The notes beneath the pieces are model-generated. The model had not been told where the DNA came from. It made no database searches and saw nothing but the letters and a program-made list of their open reading frames with translations. A DNA stretch of 44,173 nucleotides from Lachnospiraceae bacterium (GTDB taxonomy: Bacteria; Bacillota; Clostridia; Lachnospirales; Lachnospiraceae). Below are positions 10,899 to 20,896 of this stretch, in pieces (the first letter of the stretch is position 1; each line of letters opens with the position of its first letter). Both the position numbers and the translations under genes were made by a program. The stretch lies in NCBI GenBank assembly GCA_029067805.1, contig JAIEDW010000321.1, forward strand, positions 1 through 44,173, written 5' to 3'.

Positions 10899-10954
10899 GG
10901 TACTTTTAACAAATTGCAATGAATCGACAATATAAAAAGGTGAGAACAGTCGGT

Positions 10955-11356
10955 TTATTTCTCATCCATCATGAAATTAGGCGCCGGTGCCGGCGTTTCT
11001 ACCGGTACGGGTGTTTCCGGAGCAGGTACTGCTATTTCCGGTGCAGGTACTGCTGTTTCCGGTGCAGGTACTGCTGTTTCCGCCTGATTTACATTAACTC
11101 CGGGAATAGTAAGTATTTGTCCTGTATAAATAACATAATTGCTCTTTATGACTGCTGAATTTGCATCATAGATGACTTTCCACAAATCCCCATCACCATA
11201 TACTTTTTTGGCAATCTTCCAGAGGCAGTCATTTTTCTCAACCGCATAAGTAGTCTGCGCTTCTTCCGCTTTAACAGACGCCATCGGCATTGATACAATT
11301 GTAACTGCTAATGCAGCCGTTACCAGGAACCCTTTTGCGAAACTTTTCAATTTCAT
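10955..11356 (-). CDS. Secreted LysM-domain protein with proline-rich repeat tail
   Basis: Signal peptide; TYAVEKNDCLWKIAKKVYGDGDLWKVIYDANSAVIKSNYVIYTGQILTIPG (LysM); tail AVPAPETAVPAPEIAVPAPETPVPVETPAPAP. Confidence 0.88.
   Translation of the reverse strand: MKLKSFAKGFLVTAALAVTIVSMPMASVKAEEAQTTYAVEKNDCLWKIAKKVYGDGDLWKVIYDANSAVIKSNYVIYTGQILTIPGVNVNQAETAVPAPETAVPAPEIAVPAPETPVPVETPAPAPNFMMDEK
11019..11081. repeat. Three tandem 21-bp coding repeats (GGTGCAGGTACTGCTGTTTCC)
   Basis: Units at 11019-11039, 11040-11060 and 11061-11081, two identical and one with 2 mismatches. Confidence 0.9.
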
Positions 11357-11431
11357 GTTAAAATCCTCCTAAATTCTAAAAATTTTTTATGCTTGTTTAT
11401 TATAATACAATAATTGCCAAAAACGCTTTCC

Positions 11432-11473
11432 TTGACATGAATCGACCGAAGACTGCACTGAAACGACATTTTT
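11432..11473 (-). promoter_or_regulatory. Candidate LytTR-type operator upstream of the LysM gene (copy A)
   Basis: 34/42 identity to 13488-13529; on the minus strand half-sites TGTCGTTT and GGTCGATT are 21 bp apart. Confidence 0.55.
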
Positions 11474-12246
11474 TAGGCAATGTTTGAATCAGAATCTTTC
11501 TTTTTTTCTCGGTATTCCACATGCCGATACAAAAACAAGTCATTCTTTTTGGTCAGCTGCATACTGTTACTCTTCACGTAATTGTCTGCCTCTGACCGGC
11601 TTCGCACCGATTTCAACTGCCTTTTCATAATTCCCGTCACAATCAGTGCGATCACAAACGCGATTGCAAAGCAAATCACAAAAAAAAGAAAAAATGGAAA
11701 CGGCTCCTTAGGAAGATTGCCGATATTATACGGTACCCCCGTTGACGCCTGTATTATATAATCGTCACACCAGTCGGCAAAAGTCATAAATGCCGCCGCA
11801 TAATCCTCGTTTTTCAAATCTCTGGCAATCCGTTCGGACATATAGTCCAGTCCTGCATCCGTAAAAACGGTTATTGCGTAACCTCTTGTGGATATATTCC
11901 AATCCCTTTCTTCCATACTGAGAAGAAAAAGGATTCCGTCACGCATCTCTCTAAAACCATATCCGTAATAATCATAAAAATCATCTGCGTAGTCCTCTAT
12001 ATTCACACCCTCAAGCGAATCGACCGTGACCACGACAACGTCCACTTGCTGCCTTTCACTGATTTCATCCAGTTTACCACGCAGCTTTGCTTCCTCACTA
12101 TCCGAAAGTACATCCGCGTCATCCACAAGCCTTGGAAACTCTCCCGCTGCAAACACGGGAAATACGGAAGTCACGGATAAAAACAACGCTAAAAATAAAG
12201 AAAATATTTTGTAAAAAGATAATTTCTTACTGATCGTATTCATCAT
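11473..12246 (-). CDS. TPM-domain membrane protein (YgcG-like)
   Basis: 257 aa; signal peptide, FPRLVDDADVLSDSEEAKLRGKLDEISERQQVDVVVVTVDSLEG, C-terminal TM. Confidence 0.88.
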   Translation of the reverse strand: MMNTISKKLSFYKIFSLFLALFLSVTSVFPVFAAGEFPRLVDDADVLSDSEEAKLRGKLDEISERQQVDVVVVTVDSLEGVNIEDYADDFYDYYGYGFREMRDGILFLLSMEERDWNISTRGYAITVFTDAGLDYMSERIARDLKNEDYAAAFMTFADWCDDYIIQASTGVPYNIGNLPKEPFPFFLFFVICFAIAFVIALIVTGIMKRQLKSVRSRSEADNYVKSNSMQLTKKNDLFLYRHVEYREKKKDSDSNIA

Positions 12247-12256
12247 CCGCCCCCCC

Positions 12257-13339
12257 TTACAATAGCCAAATCAAGTAAGAAGCGGCAAACAGCGCAAAAC
12301 CGATCACACCTGTCAGACCAAACAAATGTTTTTTATACGCGGCTTTATCAAGTGGCAGATTTCCCACCATCTTTCCCGTCTGACCGTTCATAGCAAATAG
12401 ATAGTTCTCACCGTTCCATTTTGTATGTAAAAGCCAGACAGGCAACAATGTATATCTTACTTTGCTGTCGCTCAGCTGAATACTGCCCGTTTCCTTTGTA
12501 ACCGTTGCATAGCCTTTTGCAGTTGCGTCAAAAGCAGTCTCCGTACTTTTCCTGATTTGCTCGTTCGCGCATTTCACACTTTGGTCTGTATCTACATCAT
12601 ATTGATCTGCCAGGTAACCGGCAAGATACGCCGTTTGAAAATCCACCGCCTTTGAAAAGTCAAAAGGCTCAATTAATTCCATCAAATGATCCGGAATTTT
12701 CGTTGAGCCGTCAACAGGAACATCCTCAAACCTGATATTTCCGTCTCTGCTTACTAAAAAGTGACTAGTTTCCGTATATTCATATCTGCTGTCGCTCCAT
12801 GTTCGTACTTTGGTTGCCCTATAACGCATATTTGCATTTGCGACGGCGTCAAACACCCAAAAAGGAACATACACGCCTTTTACTTCATTCATGTGATTTT
12901 CATCTTTAAACACCTTGGGAAGCAGACATTTTCCTGCATAGTACTTTTTCAGGGCAGCAACTGCTGCCTTTTTGTCCTTTTGAAATGGAATAATGTAATC
13001 CGGTTTTAATGCACCCGAAAACTGCCTCGTCACGACTACAGCGTTTCCACAGTACGGACAGGATGTAGCCGTGTTTTTGTCACTCACAATCTCACTGCCA
13101 CAGGAATTACAGACATAAACAGATAGTCCGCTCGCTTCGCCACGCTCCCACGCTCCTCCGGCAGCCGTTTCCCATGTCATATCATCTGCCTGTTCATTCT
13201 GCAGTTCACTGTCATAACTTGCCAGTGTTTCCATCTCATATTCTGTGTCGCAGAAAGGACATTTCACTTTTTGTATTGTACTGTCAAAGGCAATGGTGCC
13301 ACCACAGCATGGACATTTATATTCCTGTATTCCCGCCAT
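12257..13339 (-). CDS. TFIIB-type/rubredoxin-like zinc-ribbon membrane protein
   Basis: 360 aa; YKCPCCGGTIAFDSTIQKVKCPFCDTEYEM and VCNSCGSEIVSDKNTATSCPYCG zinc ribbons; C-terminal TM. Confidence 0.85.
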   Translation of the reverse strand: MAGIQEYKCPCCGGTIAFDSTIQKVKCPFCDTEYEMETLASYDSELQNEQADDMTWETAAGGAWERGEASGLSVYVCNSCGSEIVSDKNTATSCPYCGNAVVVTRQFSGALKPDYIIPFQKDKKAAVAALKKYYAGKCLLPKVFKDENHMNEVKGVYVPFWVFDAVANANMRYRATKVRTWSDSRYEYTETSHFLVSRDGNIRFEDVPVDGSTKIPDHLMELIEPFDFSKAVDFQTAYLAGYLADQYDVDTDQSVKCANEQIRKSTETAFDATAKGYATVTKETGSIQLSDSKVRYTLLPVWLLHTKWNGENYLFAMNGQTGKMVGNLPLDKAAYKKHLFGLTGVIGFALFAASYLIWLL

Positions 13340-13364
13340 CTCGTCCCTCCTCTGATTTTTTACG

Positions 13365-13439
13365 TTTCCCCTGTCCTACGATCATCATGTACTGACCATC
13401 CGCAACGGCAATGGCACTTCCATTGGAAATTTTCTCACA
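13365..13439 (-). pseudogene. Possible remnant of an SPFH-domain protein gene
   Basis: Start-less minus-strand reading frame CEKISNGSAIAVADGQYMMIVGQGK, bounded by stops, immediately upstream of the zinc-ribbon gene; resembles the N-terminal region of SPFH proteins found next to TPM/zinc-ribbon genes. Confidence 0.45.
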
Positions 13440-13487
13440 TTACTGCCTAATCAGAGTTTACAATAAGCGTCTAAGAAAATGGCGTGA

Positions 13488-13529
13488 TTGATATGAATCG
13501 ACCAAAAACTGCATTCAAATGACAATTTG
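13488..13529 (-). promoter_or_regulatory. Candidate LytTR-type operator upstream of the zinc-ribbon/TPM operon (copy B)
   Basis: TTGATATGAATCGACCAAAAACTGCATTCAAATGACAATTTG; half-sites TGTCATTT and GGTCGATT 21 bp apart on the minus strand. Confidence 0.55.
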
Positions 13530-14798
13530 TTAAAGAGAAACCCGCAAAATAAACTGACCGTCCTCGACCGAAAAGTCGTACATACCGTCGTAGCGCTCCA
13601 CAATAGCGCAAATACTGCGGATTCCCATCCCGTGCCCCGGATTATTTGTGACAGGAATTCCGTGTACAAACGTAATATCCGTATCACACGAATTGATAAT
13701 CTGCAAAAAGAATTTCCAGTTTTCTTCGTAAGCAGATACTTCAATCGCGGCAGACAATCCCTTTTGTTTGCATTTCTGACAGGCATGCAGCGCGTTTTCT
13801 AACGCATTGGACAGCAACACGCACAGATCACTTTCGGATACCGGAATCACATGTGGAATCACTGCCTTAATTGTCATTGGGATACCTTGATTGTCCGCAC
13901 GTCCGACAAATGCGGAAAAAATCAGATTTGCCGCCTCATTTTCACAAAAAACCGTCACCTTATCTGCCTCAATTTCCGAACAGATTTCTCGAATATAATC
14001 TTGCGCCTGCTGTGTCTTTCCATTTTCAATACAGGAAGAAAGATACTGCATATGATGACGCAGATCGTGACGGTACACTTTGACTTTCTGCTGCGATTCC
14101 CGCAAGGTTTCAATTTCCCGGACCGCCTGGGCAATCTGAATATTTAGGGTATCCTGGGCCTGCTCTAACTGACTTCGCGCCCGCTCCGCCGCCGAAATGC
14201 GAAGCACAAAGACTAAATACGCCACACAGCATACAAATGGCATGAACTCCACAGTAACTAAAGCGCCCTCCACCAGCAGATTGGTATAAACACTTGTCAG
14301 ATAATCAAACCCGTAATATAACACTGGAATCAAACCAAACTGACACTGCACCGATGTTGTATAGTGTGAAACGGAGCGCACAGATGGCGCAACAAAACGT
14401 ACCAAAAGAAATAATAACGGCAGTGTCACAACCAGCTCCGTTATCCGCTGCATTGCCACATCACCGGAAAATACAGCAATCACCAATAAAGCAATCCACC
14501 GTCTGATCTGACAGCAAAGATATGCCGTCAAAACCGAAATAATGGACCAAAAACTCTTTTTACTGAGAATATAAAGCATAATTGCCAAAGGAATATGCGT
14601 CGTAATCGGATAAAGGCATGTTGCTAAGTGCGGACTTGCAAAAAAATAGACCATTCCTTGAAACAGCAAAAGCACAGCCATGCCGCTGATCAGCATTCTG
14701 CGTTTCTGCCGTGTCCAGACAATATCACAGAAGGCGGCAGATAAAATCATGCCAAAAATGCCCACAAACGTATGATTCAGCAGATAAACTGTGTTCAT
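13530..14798 (-). CDS. GHKL-domain sensor histidine kinase (AgrC-like)
   Basis: 422 aa; N-terminal multi-TM, VYRHDLRHHMQYLSSCIENG, LSNALENALHACQ, NNPGHGMGIRSI. Confidence 0.92.
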   Translation of the reverse strand: MNTVYLLNHTFVGIFGMILSAAFCDIVWTRQKRRMLISGMAVLLLFQGMVYFFASPHLATCLYPITTHIPLAIMLYILSKKSFWSIISVLTAYLCCQIRRWIALLVIAVFSGDVAMQRITELVVTLPLLFLLVRFVAPSVRSVSHYTTSVQCQFGLIPVLYYGFDYLTSVYTNLLVEGALVTVEFMPFVCCVAYLVFVLRISAAERARSQLEQAQDTLNIQIAQAVREIETLRESQQKVKVYRHDLRHHMQYLSSCIENGKTQQAQDYIREICSEIEADKVTVFCENEAANLIFSAFVGRADNQGIPMTIKAVIPHVIPVSESDLCVLLSNALENALHACQKCKQKGLSAAIEVSAYEENWKFFLQIINSCDTDITFVHGIPVTNNPGHGMGIRSICAIVERYDGMYDFSVEDGQFILRVSL

Positions 14799-15532
14799 GA
14801 TATAAAAACCTGCTTTCTATGAAATGCGTATTTTAGATATGTATTTTTGATTTCAGAACATTTTCCGTGCGGTATCGGAATTTGCGCAAGATTATCCATT
14901 GTAATTGCTTTGTAGGAAATATTCTGGATATACTCCATATTAATCAAAAACGACCGGTGTGGACGCAAAAAGTTTTCATATTGTGCAAGCTGATCGCACA
15001 GTTCATCTAACTTTCCGGTACTTTCCAGCACCGTTTCGTTATCCATGTGAAACAATAATGTACGGCCAATCACTTCACAATATTCCAGTCTGTCCAGGTC
15101 AATTCGTGTGATCCCGCTTTTGCAGCGCAATACCAGGCTGTACTGCTGCTCCTTTTTACATTCAGAAATAACCGAATCCATCAGCGGGAAAAAACTCTCC
15201 TCGCAAACCGGCTTCATTTGATAAAAATATGCGCCAACCGTATAGGATTGCACCGCATATTCCGAAGACGATGTCAAAAAGATAATCTTTACTGTAGTAT
15301 CATACTGCCGGATTTCTTTTGCGATACTGATCCCGTTTTCCCCCGGCATGATCACATCCAGAAGCAGAATGTCAAAGCATACCCCTTTTTCAATTTCAGT
15401 CAACAATTCCAAGGAACTTTGAAAAGCGACATATGTAATCTCCTGATTGCGCTTTACACGATATTGTTCAAGCAACGCCTTCATTTCAGCTAATACAGAC
15501 AGATCATCATCGCAAAACGCTACTTTTATCAT
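14795..15532 (-). CDS. LytTR-family response regulator (REC-LytTR)
   Basis: 245 aa; MIKVAFCDDDLSVLAEM...DILLLDVIMPGENGISIAKEIR...FLTSS; C-terminal LytTR FLRPHRSFLINMEYIQNI; overlaps kinase start by 4 bp. Confidence 0.94.
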   Translation of the reverse strand: MIKVAFCDDDLSVLAEMKALLEQYRVKRNQEITYVAFQSSLELLTEIEKGVCFDILLLDVIMPGENGISIAKEIRQYDTTVKIIFLTSSSEYAVQSYTVGAYFYQMKPVCEESFFPLMDSVISECKKEQQYSLVLRCKSGITRIDLDRLEYCEVIGRTLLFHMDNETVLESTGKLDELCDQLAQYENFLRPHRSFLINMEYIQNISYKAITMDNLAQIPIPHGKCSEIKNTYLKYAFHRKQVFIS

Positions 15533-15666: not shown

Positions 15667-15815
15667 AATTAGATAGCGATTATCCGACTTGGATTATATT
15701 TTGATACTTTATCATATCATTAAGTAAGATTCAAAAAACGAAATCGGCGTGAAATGTAGTCGAAACTGCGCGAATTGTTTCTGATTCAATTTCTAAAGAT
15801 GAGGTGTATATACCT

Positions 15816-17819
15816 ATGAAAATACAACAAAAAAAGATTGTTATATTTGCTTCTTTGCTGTTTTTTCTGATATCCGGCTTTTCAGCAATTACCGCAAAAG
15901 CAGACAGTTTGTCCGAAGAAACAGAAGAATTGATGATACAAGAAACGATAACAGAGGAAGAAGCATCCTCACCATCTGATGAAGAGTCTTTAACGGAGAA
16001 CACAACTGTAACTGTGACAGAAGAAGAAGCTTCCACATCGTTTGATGCAGAAGCGCTACAGAAAACAGAAAACATAACAGACGAAGATAGTTCCATACAA
16101 TCCAATGAAACAGCAATTCAAGAAATGGCAGAAGTAACGGAAGAGATAGGTGAACTGGCGTTCAGTGCCAACGTTGAATATTCTTTCGAAGGATATCATG
16201 TACTGGGAACCTTTACAGAATTTCCGACCGACATCATCCATATTCAGCTGTTATACTCACAGGATAATAAAACCTACCATAAATGTAGCATAGAACGCGA
16301 TTTAAAGGATATTATCAGCGAGAGCATTGTGGAAAAAAAACGGCTAATCTGTCTCTATTCCAACATGGAGCCGCTAAAAAGTTATCTGGAAGGCTCTCTG
16401 GACCGTTTTTATTTAAAACTGCGCCTCACCAAAGAAAACGGTGTTATTTGCGAAACACAGACAGCGCTTATCGACCGTGGAGCATTACAGCCACTTCCCG
16501 AGGAACTAACCCTTGGCGCTGCCTTTCCTTCCAACATGCTAGTGCGTGAAATGAATCCACTTCGCTACTATGGAAAATACCAAATCACCGTAAAGGAAAC
16601 GGCTGCATCCCAAGATATATCCGCAGTTTTACCGGATACGCTTCCAATTGAAGTACAGCTTCTGAAAAAAGGAAAACCCTTTGCAGAAGCGATTGTAGAT
16701 TGCCCCGTTACATGGAAATCCCTATCACTCCCTTCACTCACTGCCGGAGAAAGCGTGACAATTGAGGACGCGGCGGAAGAAATCATCATCCCCGGCGGCA
16801 CTTTGCTGCGCACACCAATGGGTGTCTTCCGGATTAACGAACCGTTTGGCATTGCACAAGATGTGCTTACAGATGAAATCCGGTTGATTCTAAATGTTGT
16901 ATCAAAAGACGAAAAACCAACCGGAGTATTGATAGCAAACAACGACGGATTGGAAATGGCATTCTATCAAAAGCCCACTGGTGCCACCTCCATTCTGGCA
17001 TATACCATTTCCGCGAATGAAACAAAATGGACAGAGCTTCCCGAGCTTGCACTGTTAGAAGCAATTAATTCCCAACCCTCCACTGCAAGCAGCGGATATG
17101 CCCTTGTATTGCGCAATGATCAGGAACCATATCGCTCTTATTTGGCGGCGGAAGCTGCAGGAGGCGCCCACACACCATTCTTTGTTGGTCTGAAAATACA
17201 AGGCGGCGTTTACGACGGACAGCAACTGATCCTCGCATGGCCGGACAATTATGAGCTCCCCCCCAGTCTGCCAAAGCTCGATGGAGCAGGCGGAAATGAA
17301 AGTAATGCTGGTGCAGGCAATAAAGGCAACAGTACGACGGAAGGGCAAAGACCAAATCTTCCTCAAAATACGGACACGAAAAAAGAAAAACAGAATCCCA
17401 ATCTGTCCCAAAGCCAAAATACAGAAAACAAAAATACGAAAAACAAAAATACGGAAAGCACGATGGAACTACCGATGGAATCCGATGTAAAAAATCAGCA
17501 GACACAGAAAGACAGACCCTCACTGGGCAGCCTTGGTTCCTCTGCTTTCACGCAGCCTTCCGCTAAAGCACAGACCGCACTTTTTGTCAATGCAGAAGAA
17601 AATATTTCAGAAACAGTTATTGCAACAGATGTACAGACCGACACTCAAACAGAGAAGGTGATCCCGAAAACACCCGCTACTGAAAACAAACTGTCTGCTG
17701 CTTTGGTTCCCGCCAATCACAACAAAAAAAACGATTACCAACTATTTCTTTGGCTCATGGCAGCAGCAATCGCTGGAATCGGGATTACCTTATATATCCG
17801 CAAGACGGCACATACATAA
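15816..17819 (+). CDS. Uncharacterised secreted, C-terminally membrane-anchored surface protein
   Basis: Signal peptide MKIQQKKIVIFASLLFFLISGFSAITAKAD; acidic E/T/S-rich N-terminal segment; Lys/Asn/Gln-rich low-complexity linker; C-terminal TM LFLWLMAAAIAGIGITLYIRK; GAGGTG RBS 9 nt before ATG 15816 (track start 15804 is a GTG inside the RBS). Confidence 0.85.
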   Translation: MKIQQKKIVIFASLLFFLISGFSAITAKADSLSEETEELMIQETITEEEASSPSDEESLTENTTVTVTEEEASTSFDAEALQKTENITDEDSSIQSNETAIQEMAEVTEEIGELAFSANVEYSFEGYHVLGTFTEFPTDIIHIQLLYSQDNKTYHKCSIERDLKDIISESIVEKKRLICLYSNMEPLKSYLEGSLDRFYLKLRLTKENGVICETQTALIDRGALQPLPEELTLGAAFPSNMLVREMNPLRYYGKYQITVKETAASQDISAVLPDTLPIEVQLLKKGKPFAEAIVDCPVTWKSLSLPSLTAGESVTIEDAAEEIIIPGGTLLRTPMGVFRINEPFGIAQDVLTDEIRLILNVVSKDEKPTGVLIANNDGLEMAFYQKPTGATSILAYTISANETKWTELPELALLEAINSQPSTASSGYALVLRNDQEPYRSYLAAEAAGGAHTPFFVGLKIQGGVYDGQQLILAWPDNYELPPSLPKLDGAGGNESNAGAGNKGNSTTEGQRPNLPQNTDTKKEKQNPNLSQSQNTENKNTKNKNTESTMELPMESDVKNQQTQKDRPSLGSLGSSAFTQPSAKAQTALFVNAEENISETVIATDVQTDTQTEKVIPKTPATENKLSAALVPANHNKKNDYQLFLWLMAAAIAGIGITLYIRKTAHT

Positions 17820-19747: not shown

Positions 19748-20848
19748 TCAATCATTTACTGGCACAAAGCGATATCCCTGTCCCCAAACCGTTTCAATAA
19801 AACGATGCTCCTCCCACGCTTTCTCCAGTTTCCGCCGCAGTCGGGACATGTGCATCTGTACCATCTGACCACCATCCCAAGGCTGGCCGCTCCAAATGAT
19901 ATGAAAGATCTCCTCCAGTGTAAAAATATGCTCCGGATGCTCCGAAAGACGCCATAAAATGTCAAATTCGACAGGCGTAAGAAGCAGTTCCTTTCCGTCA
20001 ATCGACACCCTGCGCTGTGCCAAATCCAGACAAAGCGGACCATAAGAAAATGCCGTGCGCTCGGACATTGCCAGTCTAATACGGGTTTCCACTTTTGTCC
20101 AAAACAGATCAGCAGAAGTATCCTTCGTAATATAATCTATACCACCTGCCGCAAATCCTTCCACCTGCTTGTCCGCTTCGGTAACGCAGCTCAAAAAGAT
20201 AATCGGCGCGGACGTTATCTTGTGAAGTTTTTCACAAACTAAGAACCCCTCCTCATCGGGAAGCATCACGTCCAGCAGAATACAGTCGCACGACTCATCC
20301 GCCGCCAGTTTCAGTGCGTCCTCACCGTTCCCTGCAAGCCGCACAATACAGCCATGCGCCCGTAAAACATCCGCCCAAAAAGTACGCTGGGCCGGTTCAT
20401 CATCCACCAGCAGGATCCGCCACAATCCATCGAAACGTTTCAGCTTTTCAACAGCTGCTGTCATTTGTGTATCAGACGCAGAAGCATCTGTTCTTGTCTG
20501 ATGCAGAAAGCGCATATAAGCATCCTGAAGCTGGCTGCGGCGCAGTCTTGATACCGGAATATTATGTTTGTTTTTCGTCACGATACAGTTCGTATCAATC
20601 GCCTCGACATAGTTTAAATTAACAAGATAAGAGCGATGTATTTTAAAAAACTCCGGTCTTTCCAACAGTTTCTCCTCAAAATCCGTCAAGGCTGCCGTCA
20701 CCTCGCGAATCACACCATCTGCCAAATGAAAGGACACTGTCTTATTGATAACCTCCACATATTCAAGCATTGCAAAAGATACCCTAACGACACCCTCCCT
20801 GTTCTTTAACACAAATCCCTGATCCGCATCACATATTTCGATCTGCAT
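19748..20848 (-). CDS. Response regulator with apparent LytTR-REC-winged-helix (OmpR type) architecture
   Basis: N-terminal LytTR (LEYVEVINKTVSFHL...EFFKIHRSYLVNLNYVEAI...IPVSRLRRSQLQDAYMRFL), REC (RILLVDDEPAQRTFWADVLRAHGCIVRLAGNGEDALKL...DCILLDVMLPDEEG), OmpR wHTH (LTPVEFDILWRLSEHPEHIFTLEEIFHIIW...VQMHMSRLRRKLE...IETVWGQGYRFVP). Start set to ATG 20848 with GAGGAGG RBS. Confidence 0.92.
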   Translation of the reverse strand: MQIEICDADQGFVLKNREGVVRVSFAMLEYVEVINKTVSFHLADGVIREVTAALTDFEEKLLERPEFFKIHRSYLVNLNYVEAIDTNCIVTKNKHNIPVSRLRRSQLQDAYMRFLHQTRTDASASDTQMTAAVEKLKRFDGLWRILLVDDEPAQRTFWADVLRAHGCIVRLAGNGEDALKLAADESCDCILLDVMLPDEEGFLVCEKLHKITSAPIIFLSCVTEADKQVEGFAAGGIDYITKDTSADLFWTKVETRIRLAMSERTAFSYGPLCLDLAQRRVSIDGKELLLTPVEFDILWRLSEHPEHIFTLEEIFHIIWSGQPWDGGQMVQMHMSRLRRKLEKAWEEHRFIETVWGQGYRFVPVND

Positions 20849-20879
20849 CTTTCCGGCCTCCTCGCCTTTCAAAAAATAC

Positions 20880-20896
20880 GGGGGCAAGAAGCCCCC
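20880..20896 (-). terminator. Terminator downstream of ugd
   Basis: GGGGGC-TTCTT-GCCCCC followed by GTATTTTTT on the minus strand. Confidence 0.7.

Follow-up and report, generated by a model that had tools for sequence, protein, structure and literature searches.

Paired direct-repeat elements as predicted operators of a LytTR two-component system and a two-promoter cell-surface regulon in a Lachnospiraceae bacterium

Introduction

Two near-identical 42-bp sequences lie close together in a 44,173-nucleotide stretch of DNA from an uncultured gut bacterium of the Lachnospiraceae (contig JAIEDW010000321.1; hereafter the window), and they raise the question of whether they are operators, and if so, of which regulator and for which genes. 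The initial annotation took them for LytTR operators, read by the adjacent LytTR response regulator, by a nearby LytTR-REC-wHTH protein, or by both, and controlling a local envelope regulon. Our analysis indicates that they are very probably activator operators of the adjacent kinase/LytTR regulator two-component system and serve a two-promoter cell-surface regulon, and from the sequence we infer binding, dependence on phosphorylation, and activation rather than repression.

Two related intergenic elements

The elements occupy positions 11432-11473 and 13488-13529, are identical at 34 of 42 positions, and are both intergenic and in the same orientation, just as first described. The first is upstream of the LysM gene and reaches into the TPM gene by a single base, the last of its stop codon; the second begins immediately 3′ of the GHKL kinase stop and is upstream of the SPFH-remnant/zinc-ribbon/TPM genes. 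Because the flanking genes of both elements are on the minus strand, the elements are read as operators on that strand, on which both contain a 9-bp direct repeat, GTCRWTTSA-N12-GTCGATTCA. The half-sites originally reported, TGTCRTTT and GGTCGATT, are spaced by exactly 21 bp in both elements. The LysM operator is GTCGTTTCA-N12-GTCGATTCA (11438-11467) and the second operator is GTCATTTGA-N12-GTCGATTCA (13494-13523); in each, the two half-sites start 21 bp from one another.

11459..11467 (-): LysM operator, upstream half-site GTCGTTTCA (sequence; alignment columns 0-8)
11438..11446 (-): LysM operator, promoter-proximal half-site GTCGATTCA (sequence; alignment columns 21-29)
13515..13523 (-): second operator, upstream half-site GTCATTTGA (sequence; 25-site alignment)
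13494..13502 (-): second operator, promoter-proximal half-site GTCGATTCA (sequence; 25-site alignment)

There are no comparable sequences elsewhere. First, a 41-base IUPAC pattern, allowing up to three mismatches, has two matches in the window and none in 100 dinucleotide shuffles. Second, a pattern search of the whole source genome (3,193,488 bases in 460 contigs, 85.5% complete) with two patterns and up to three mismatches returns these two intergenic places only, so that the random matches within coding sequences that would have counted against the operator reading were not found; since the genome is incomplete, the assembly may lack a third site. Third, with a matrix built without the window the elements score 53 and 50 bits, the next best same-strand window score being 2.6 and the best among 60 Markov-shuffled windows 17. 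The shuffles and the whole-genome search exclude chance as the origin of the pair.

A lone GTCGATTCA half-site followed by TTGCAA is present at 10920-10928 (-), between the LysM and solute-binding-protein genes. It was considered as a third operator and rejected, as it has neither a partner half-site nor a promoter and scores 1.3; it is perhaps a relic.

Genes downstream of the elements

The predicted targets in the window are as follows.

10955..11356 (-): target gene 1, secreted LysM-domain protein, 133 aa (Pfam LysM, 6e-7)
13365..13430 (-): remnant of an SPFH (Band 7) gene, ISNGSAIAVADGQYMMIVGQGK (translation compared with the SPFH gene at L036:2279-3622)
12257..13339 (-): target gene 2, zinc-ribbon membrane protein, 360 aa (weak zinc-ribbon matches)
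11473..12246 (-): target gene 3, TPM-domain protein (Pfam TPM, 4e-33; translation)

The order from the second promoter is thus SPFH remnant, zinc-ribbon gene and TPM gene, and the TPM protein apparently has a signal peptide and a C-terminal transmembrane segment. The SPFH gene is intact in L036 (Pfam Band_7_1, 7e-17), L038 and other relatives; in the window a deletion has cut it to a 66-base remnant, with the promoter and downstream genes kept, and as most of the gene is gone the second promoter may be decaying there. Orthologues of the zinc-ribbon protein (67-74% identical) follow the same site in relatives, and LysM orthologues with the same site upstream occur in G003, G004, G005, G030 and L140. 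The G003 orthologue is in a different place and on the opposite strand, yet has the site upstream.

A pattern search of the 38 genomes of the genus yields about 25 good sites. The genes that they precede are consistent with the envelope regulon first proposed:

SPFH/zinc-ribbon/TPM operons: L036, L038, L080, L081
LysM genes: L037, L076, L078, L082
clostripain-family gene: L076
S-layer-homology (SLH) protein gene: L077
SHOCT protein gene: L075 (second in line in L084)
genes for short secreted or lipoprotein-like proteins: L040, L041, L078, L079

The common theme of these predicted targets, with LysM, SLH and lipoprotein genes in relatives, is the cell surface.

Promoter layout

Alignment of 25 genus sites without gaps places a TATACT-like -10 box at one fixed distance from the repeat. 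The consensus is AnnnAnT-GTCGATTCA-rTGCAnTTTTnG-GTCGATTCATG, followed by a T-rich stretch and by TATACT at columns 63-68, in which the A and T are each 88% conserved. The full layout is 9-12-9-10-(-35)-17-(-10), the -35 position falling at columns 40-45, where the hexamer is weakly conserved. The search pattern took in neither the -10 columns nor column 12 with its C nor the spacer TT, and the conservation of these positions is therefore independent evidence. The corresponding positions in the window are:

11422-11427 (-): -35 position of the LysM promoter, AGCGTT, poor
11399..11404 (-): -10 box of the LysM promoter, TATAAT (fixed spacing in 25 aligned sites)
13478-13483 (-): -35 position of the second promoter, GCCATT, poor
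13455..13460 (-): -10 box of the second promoter, TAAACT (fixed spacing in 25 aligned sites)

A sigma-70 scan of the window picked up neither promoter, and this, together with the poor -35 hexamers, is expected of promoters that depend on an activator.

This arrangement is that of LytTR operators. The broad LytTR half-site consensus is [TA][AC][CA]GTTN[AG][TG], which TCGATTCAT matches in part, at 7 of 9 positions. Genuine LytTR repeats can diverge from the consensus, and in LytTR systems the 9-bp repeats are separated by 12 bp and strongly favour a position 10 bp upstream of the -35 (PMC6193735). Both elements and the 25 aligned sites have two 9-bp repeats separated by 12 bp (11-13 being allowed), and in the gap-free alignment these are about 10 bp upstream of the -35 with the -10 about 17 bp beyond. 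The AgrA repeat pair is placed near -60 (PMC4227749), and the centre of the pair here is also near -60 if transcription starts about 7 bp after the -10. Geometry and fixed -10 spacing, along with the findings described below that the sites are conserved in several genera and co-occur with the regulator, support the reading of these sites as LytTR operators serving a small envelope regulon.

It is unlikely that the regulator represses from these positions, or both represses and activates, by blocking or tuning polymerase just upstream of the -35. There is precedent in LytTR pairs such as PlnC/PlnD, which are reported to have common sites and opposite outcomes (PMC2714321), but the poor -35, the fixed 10-bp gap to it and a pair centred near -60 form the activator layout of AgrA and HdrR/BrsR.

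The adjacent two-component system

Two overlapping genes adjoin the second element.

13530..14798 (-): cognate GHKL (AgrC/ComD-like) membrane histidine kinase, whose gene overlaps that of the regulator (Pfam HATPase_c_5, 8e-18)
14795..15532 (-): REC-LytTR response regulator with FhRhHRS signature, FLRPHRS (Pfam; co-occurrence with the site)

The regulator has both parts of a LytTR response regulator, a receiver with a phospho-acceptor Asp (Response_reg, 7.5e-15) and a LytTR domain with the FhRhHRS signature (LytTR, 4e-13), and D8, D54, K107, H192 and R193 are invariant among 25 orthologues. A search of solved structures matched ComE (4cbv) across both domains; the AgrA-DNA complex was absent from the matches. 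We propose that the kinase senses a signal and phosphorylates the regulator, which would then bind as a dimer, with one LytTR domain on each GTCGATTCA half-site and both on the same face of the helix, and recruit sigma-A RNA polymerase to promoters whose -10 is good and whose -35 is poor. The SPFH-remnant/zinc-ribbon/TPM operon would be driven by one of these promoters and the LysM gene by the other. There is no site upstream of the regulator gene in the window (best matrix score -12), so autoregulation is unsupported there; a site does precede the regulator gene in L135, L136 and L123.

On the other strand, 15804-17819 (+) encodes a 671-aa protein with an apparent signal peptide and C-terminal transmembrane segment and no Pfam match. 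Its relatives (about 31-56% identity) adjoin both two-component systems in many genomes, and it is possibly a sensory partner.

Co-occurrence of site and regulator

The pairing of GHKL kinase and response regulator is conserved in relatives. Six further genomes of the genus have a clear orthologue of the kinase (58-78%), in each case paired with a regulator orthologue, and in all six the direct repeat is within about 5-60 bases 3′ of the kinase stop. Of the 38 genus genomes, eight have a regulator orthologue, and the site (at most one mismatch) is present in 8/8 of these and in 2/30 of those without it (Fisher 9e-7, shared ancestry ignored). Among 397 genomes of the family, from 334 genera, a composite pattern of repeat and -10 matches four genomes and the reversed pattern none; all four are among the seven of 397 with the regulator (hypergeometric p 3e-8, or about 2e-6 by hand minus the genome of the window, shared ancestry ignored in both). 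In the three other genera represented by these matches the site is just 3′ of the regulator-kinase pair.

A scan of genome contigs extends this to 34 regulator loci (57-81% identity). The records that hold them are nearly all named Lachnospiraceae and include one labelled Acetatifactor sp. and the complete genome of isolate GAM79. At 35 of 42 unique regulator loci the site adjoins the regulator operon, nearly always directly after the kinase gene; of the 35 loci that contributed no adjacent site to the matrix, 28 have one. The adjoining sites are all on the strand of the regulator, and a reversed control of 1.13 Mb gave one sequence above the matrix cut-off. At L141, L150 and L157, the last being the GAM79 locus, with no recognisable kinase beside the regulator, the site is directly 3′ of the regulator gene itself. 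The remaining seven loci have no adjacent site, and four of them have one further off.

The converse also occurs, in that G020, G024 and G031 have the site and no regulator orthologue; the reader in these genomes may be a different LytTR protein, or the assemblies may be incomplete. In G031 two good sites are near the ends of contigs C40 and C46 (L085 and L086), and its regulator may be hidden by an assembly gap.

Which LytTR protein reads the sites

Two LytTR proteins had been put forward as readers, singly or together, and the evidence favours one of them: the response regulator at 14795-15532 is most likely the reader, and the LytTR-REC-wHTH protein at 19748-20887 fits worse. The two sites of the window, the only ones in the genome, are both close to the regulator operon. 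That the LytTR-REC-wHTH protein binds them, alone or in competition with the response regulator, we consider quite improbable. It does have a LytTR domain with an FhRhHRS-like motif and is encoded 4 kb away, and in G003, G004, G005, G017 and G030 several sites immediately precede genes that lead into its operon. Against this, G013 and G014 both have the regulator and the site and lack this protein; G009 has it with neither the regulator nor a good site; and in G376 only the REC-wHTH half is matched, yet the site is present. Only 7 of the 38 genus genomes have it, and its link to presence or absence of the site is weaker (Fisher 5e-4).

This protein has longer relatives. A four-domain REC-LytTR-REC-wHTH regulator of 484-487 aa is whole in G003 and G017 (Pfam; L074:5891-7345 and L079:10297-11760) and probable in G004 and G030, and the protein in the window is a shortened version with the first receiver domain missing. 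On contig C38 of G004 the match (L076:4589-6301) has one internal stop (TAA) and is possibly a pseudogene or an assembly error. In L074, L078, L079 and L082 the site is followed by a LysM or lipoprotein gene and then directly by the REC-LytTR-REC-wHTH gene, which in L074, L078 and L079 is also accompanied by its kinase. This position of the site suggests that one two-component system may feed another.

Co-variation bears on the response regulator itself. In L122, L123, L154 and L160 the regulators have H156 and R222 in place of the usual G156 and H222, and the sites share a core CGATTC with the 21-bp step unchanged, the first half being mostly CGATTCAGTACATTTT and the second TACGATTC or TACGCTTC in three of the four. 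L124 has R222 with G156 and retains the usual site. The pattern would fit direct readout by orthologues of the 14795-15532 regulator, in which positions 156 and 222 presumably touch DNA; it is only suggestive, and the altered pairs may represent a single evolutionary event.

Finally, the presence of two near-identical intergenic copies might point away from an operator and to a small element that is mobile or repetitive, to an RNA element, or to an ECF-sigma promoter, and this is most improbable: the unlike flanks mean that no longer element was duplicated, there are two copies only in the genome, the paired half-sites and their distance to the -10 are retained in the cross-genus alignment despite strong divergence of the sequences, there is no Rfam match, and an ECF-sigma promoter would not consist of two half-sites and, after a 31-bp gap, a sigma-A -10.

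Discussion

The predicted regulon is new and the type of control, by LytTR activator operators, is already known. The half-site here is TCGATTCAT-like, as against ACAGTTAAG for AgrA. The operon consists of regulator and kinase only, with neither agrB nor agrD seen in it and no AgrB match among the ten neighbouring proteins scanned, and in this it differs from agr-type quorum-sensing systems. The system nonetheless resembles AgrA at agr P2/P3 of Staphylococcus aureus in its LytTR response regulator and GHKL kinase, its direct-repeat pair centred near -60 and its non-ideal core promoters (PMC4227749), the difference being that the targets here are envelope genes adjoining the regulator. With HdrRM/BrsRM of Streptococcus mutans it has in common 9-bp direct repeats that are separated by 12 bp and lie about 10 bp before the -35 (PMC6193735). 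Those systems have a membrane inhibitor protein, as is characteristic of LytTR Regulatory Systems, where this one has a receiver domain and a GHKL histidine kinase, and in the window, unlike in those systems, no site precedes the regulator's own operon.

Band-7 (SPFH), TPM and zinc-ribbon proteins occur in PspA-type envelope-stress neighbourhoods, and the Bacillus ydjFGHL-type PspA/Band-7/TPM operons likewise bring SPFH (Band 7), zinc ribbon and TPM together (PMC11237479). In contrast to those operons, no PspA was recognised in the operon here and control would be by an adjacent LytTR two-component system. In the literature searched we found no earlier description of these operators or this regulon, no LytTR regulon described for this gut lineage, and no paper mentioning LytTR and SPFH together.

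A two-component system of a gut lineage thereby gains a proposed DNA motif, promoter layout and set of targets, and SPFH/TPM envelope proteins are connected with a LytTR system. The analysis also provides a search matrix ready for regulon prediction in dozens of Lachnospiraceae genomes. Tentatively, the system may be a dedicated envelope-maintenance pathway of the Lachnospiraceae, in which a LytTR system, without PspA, would switch on an SPFH/zinc-ribbon/TPM membrane complex together with LysM, S-layer-homology and lipoprotein genes, and in some relatives would feed the REC-LytTR-REC-wHTH system.
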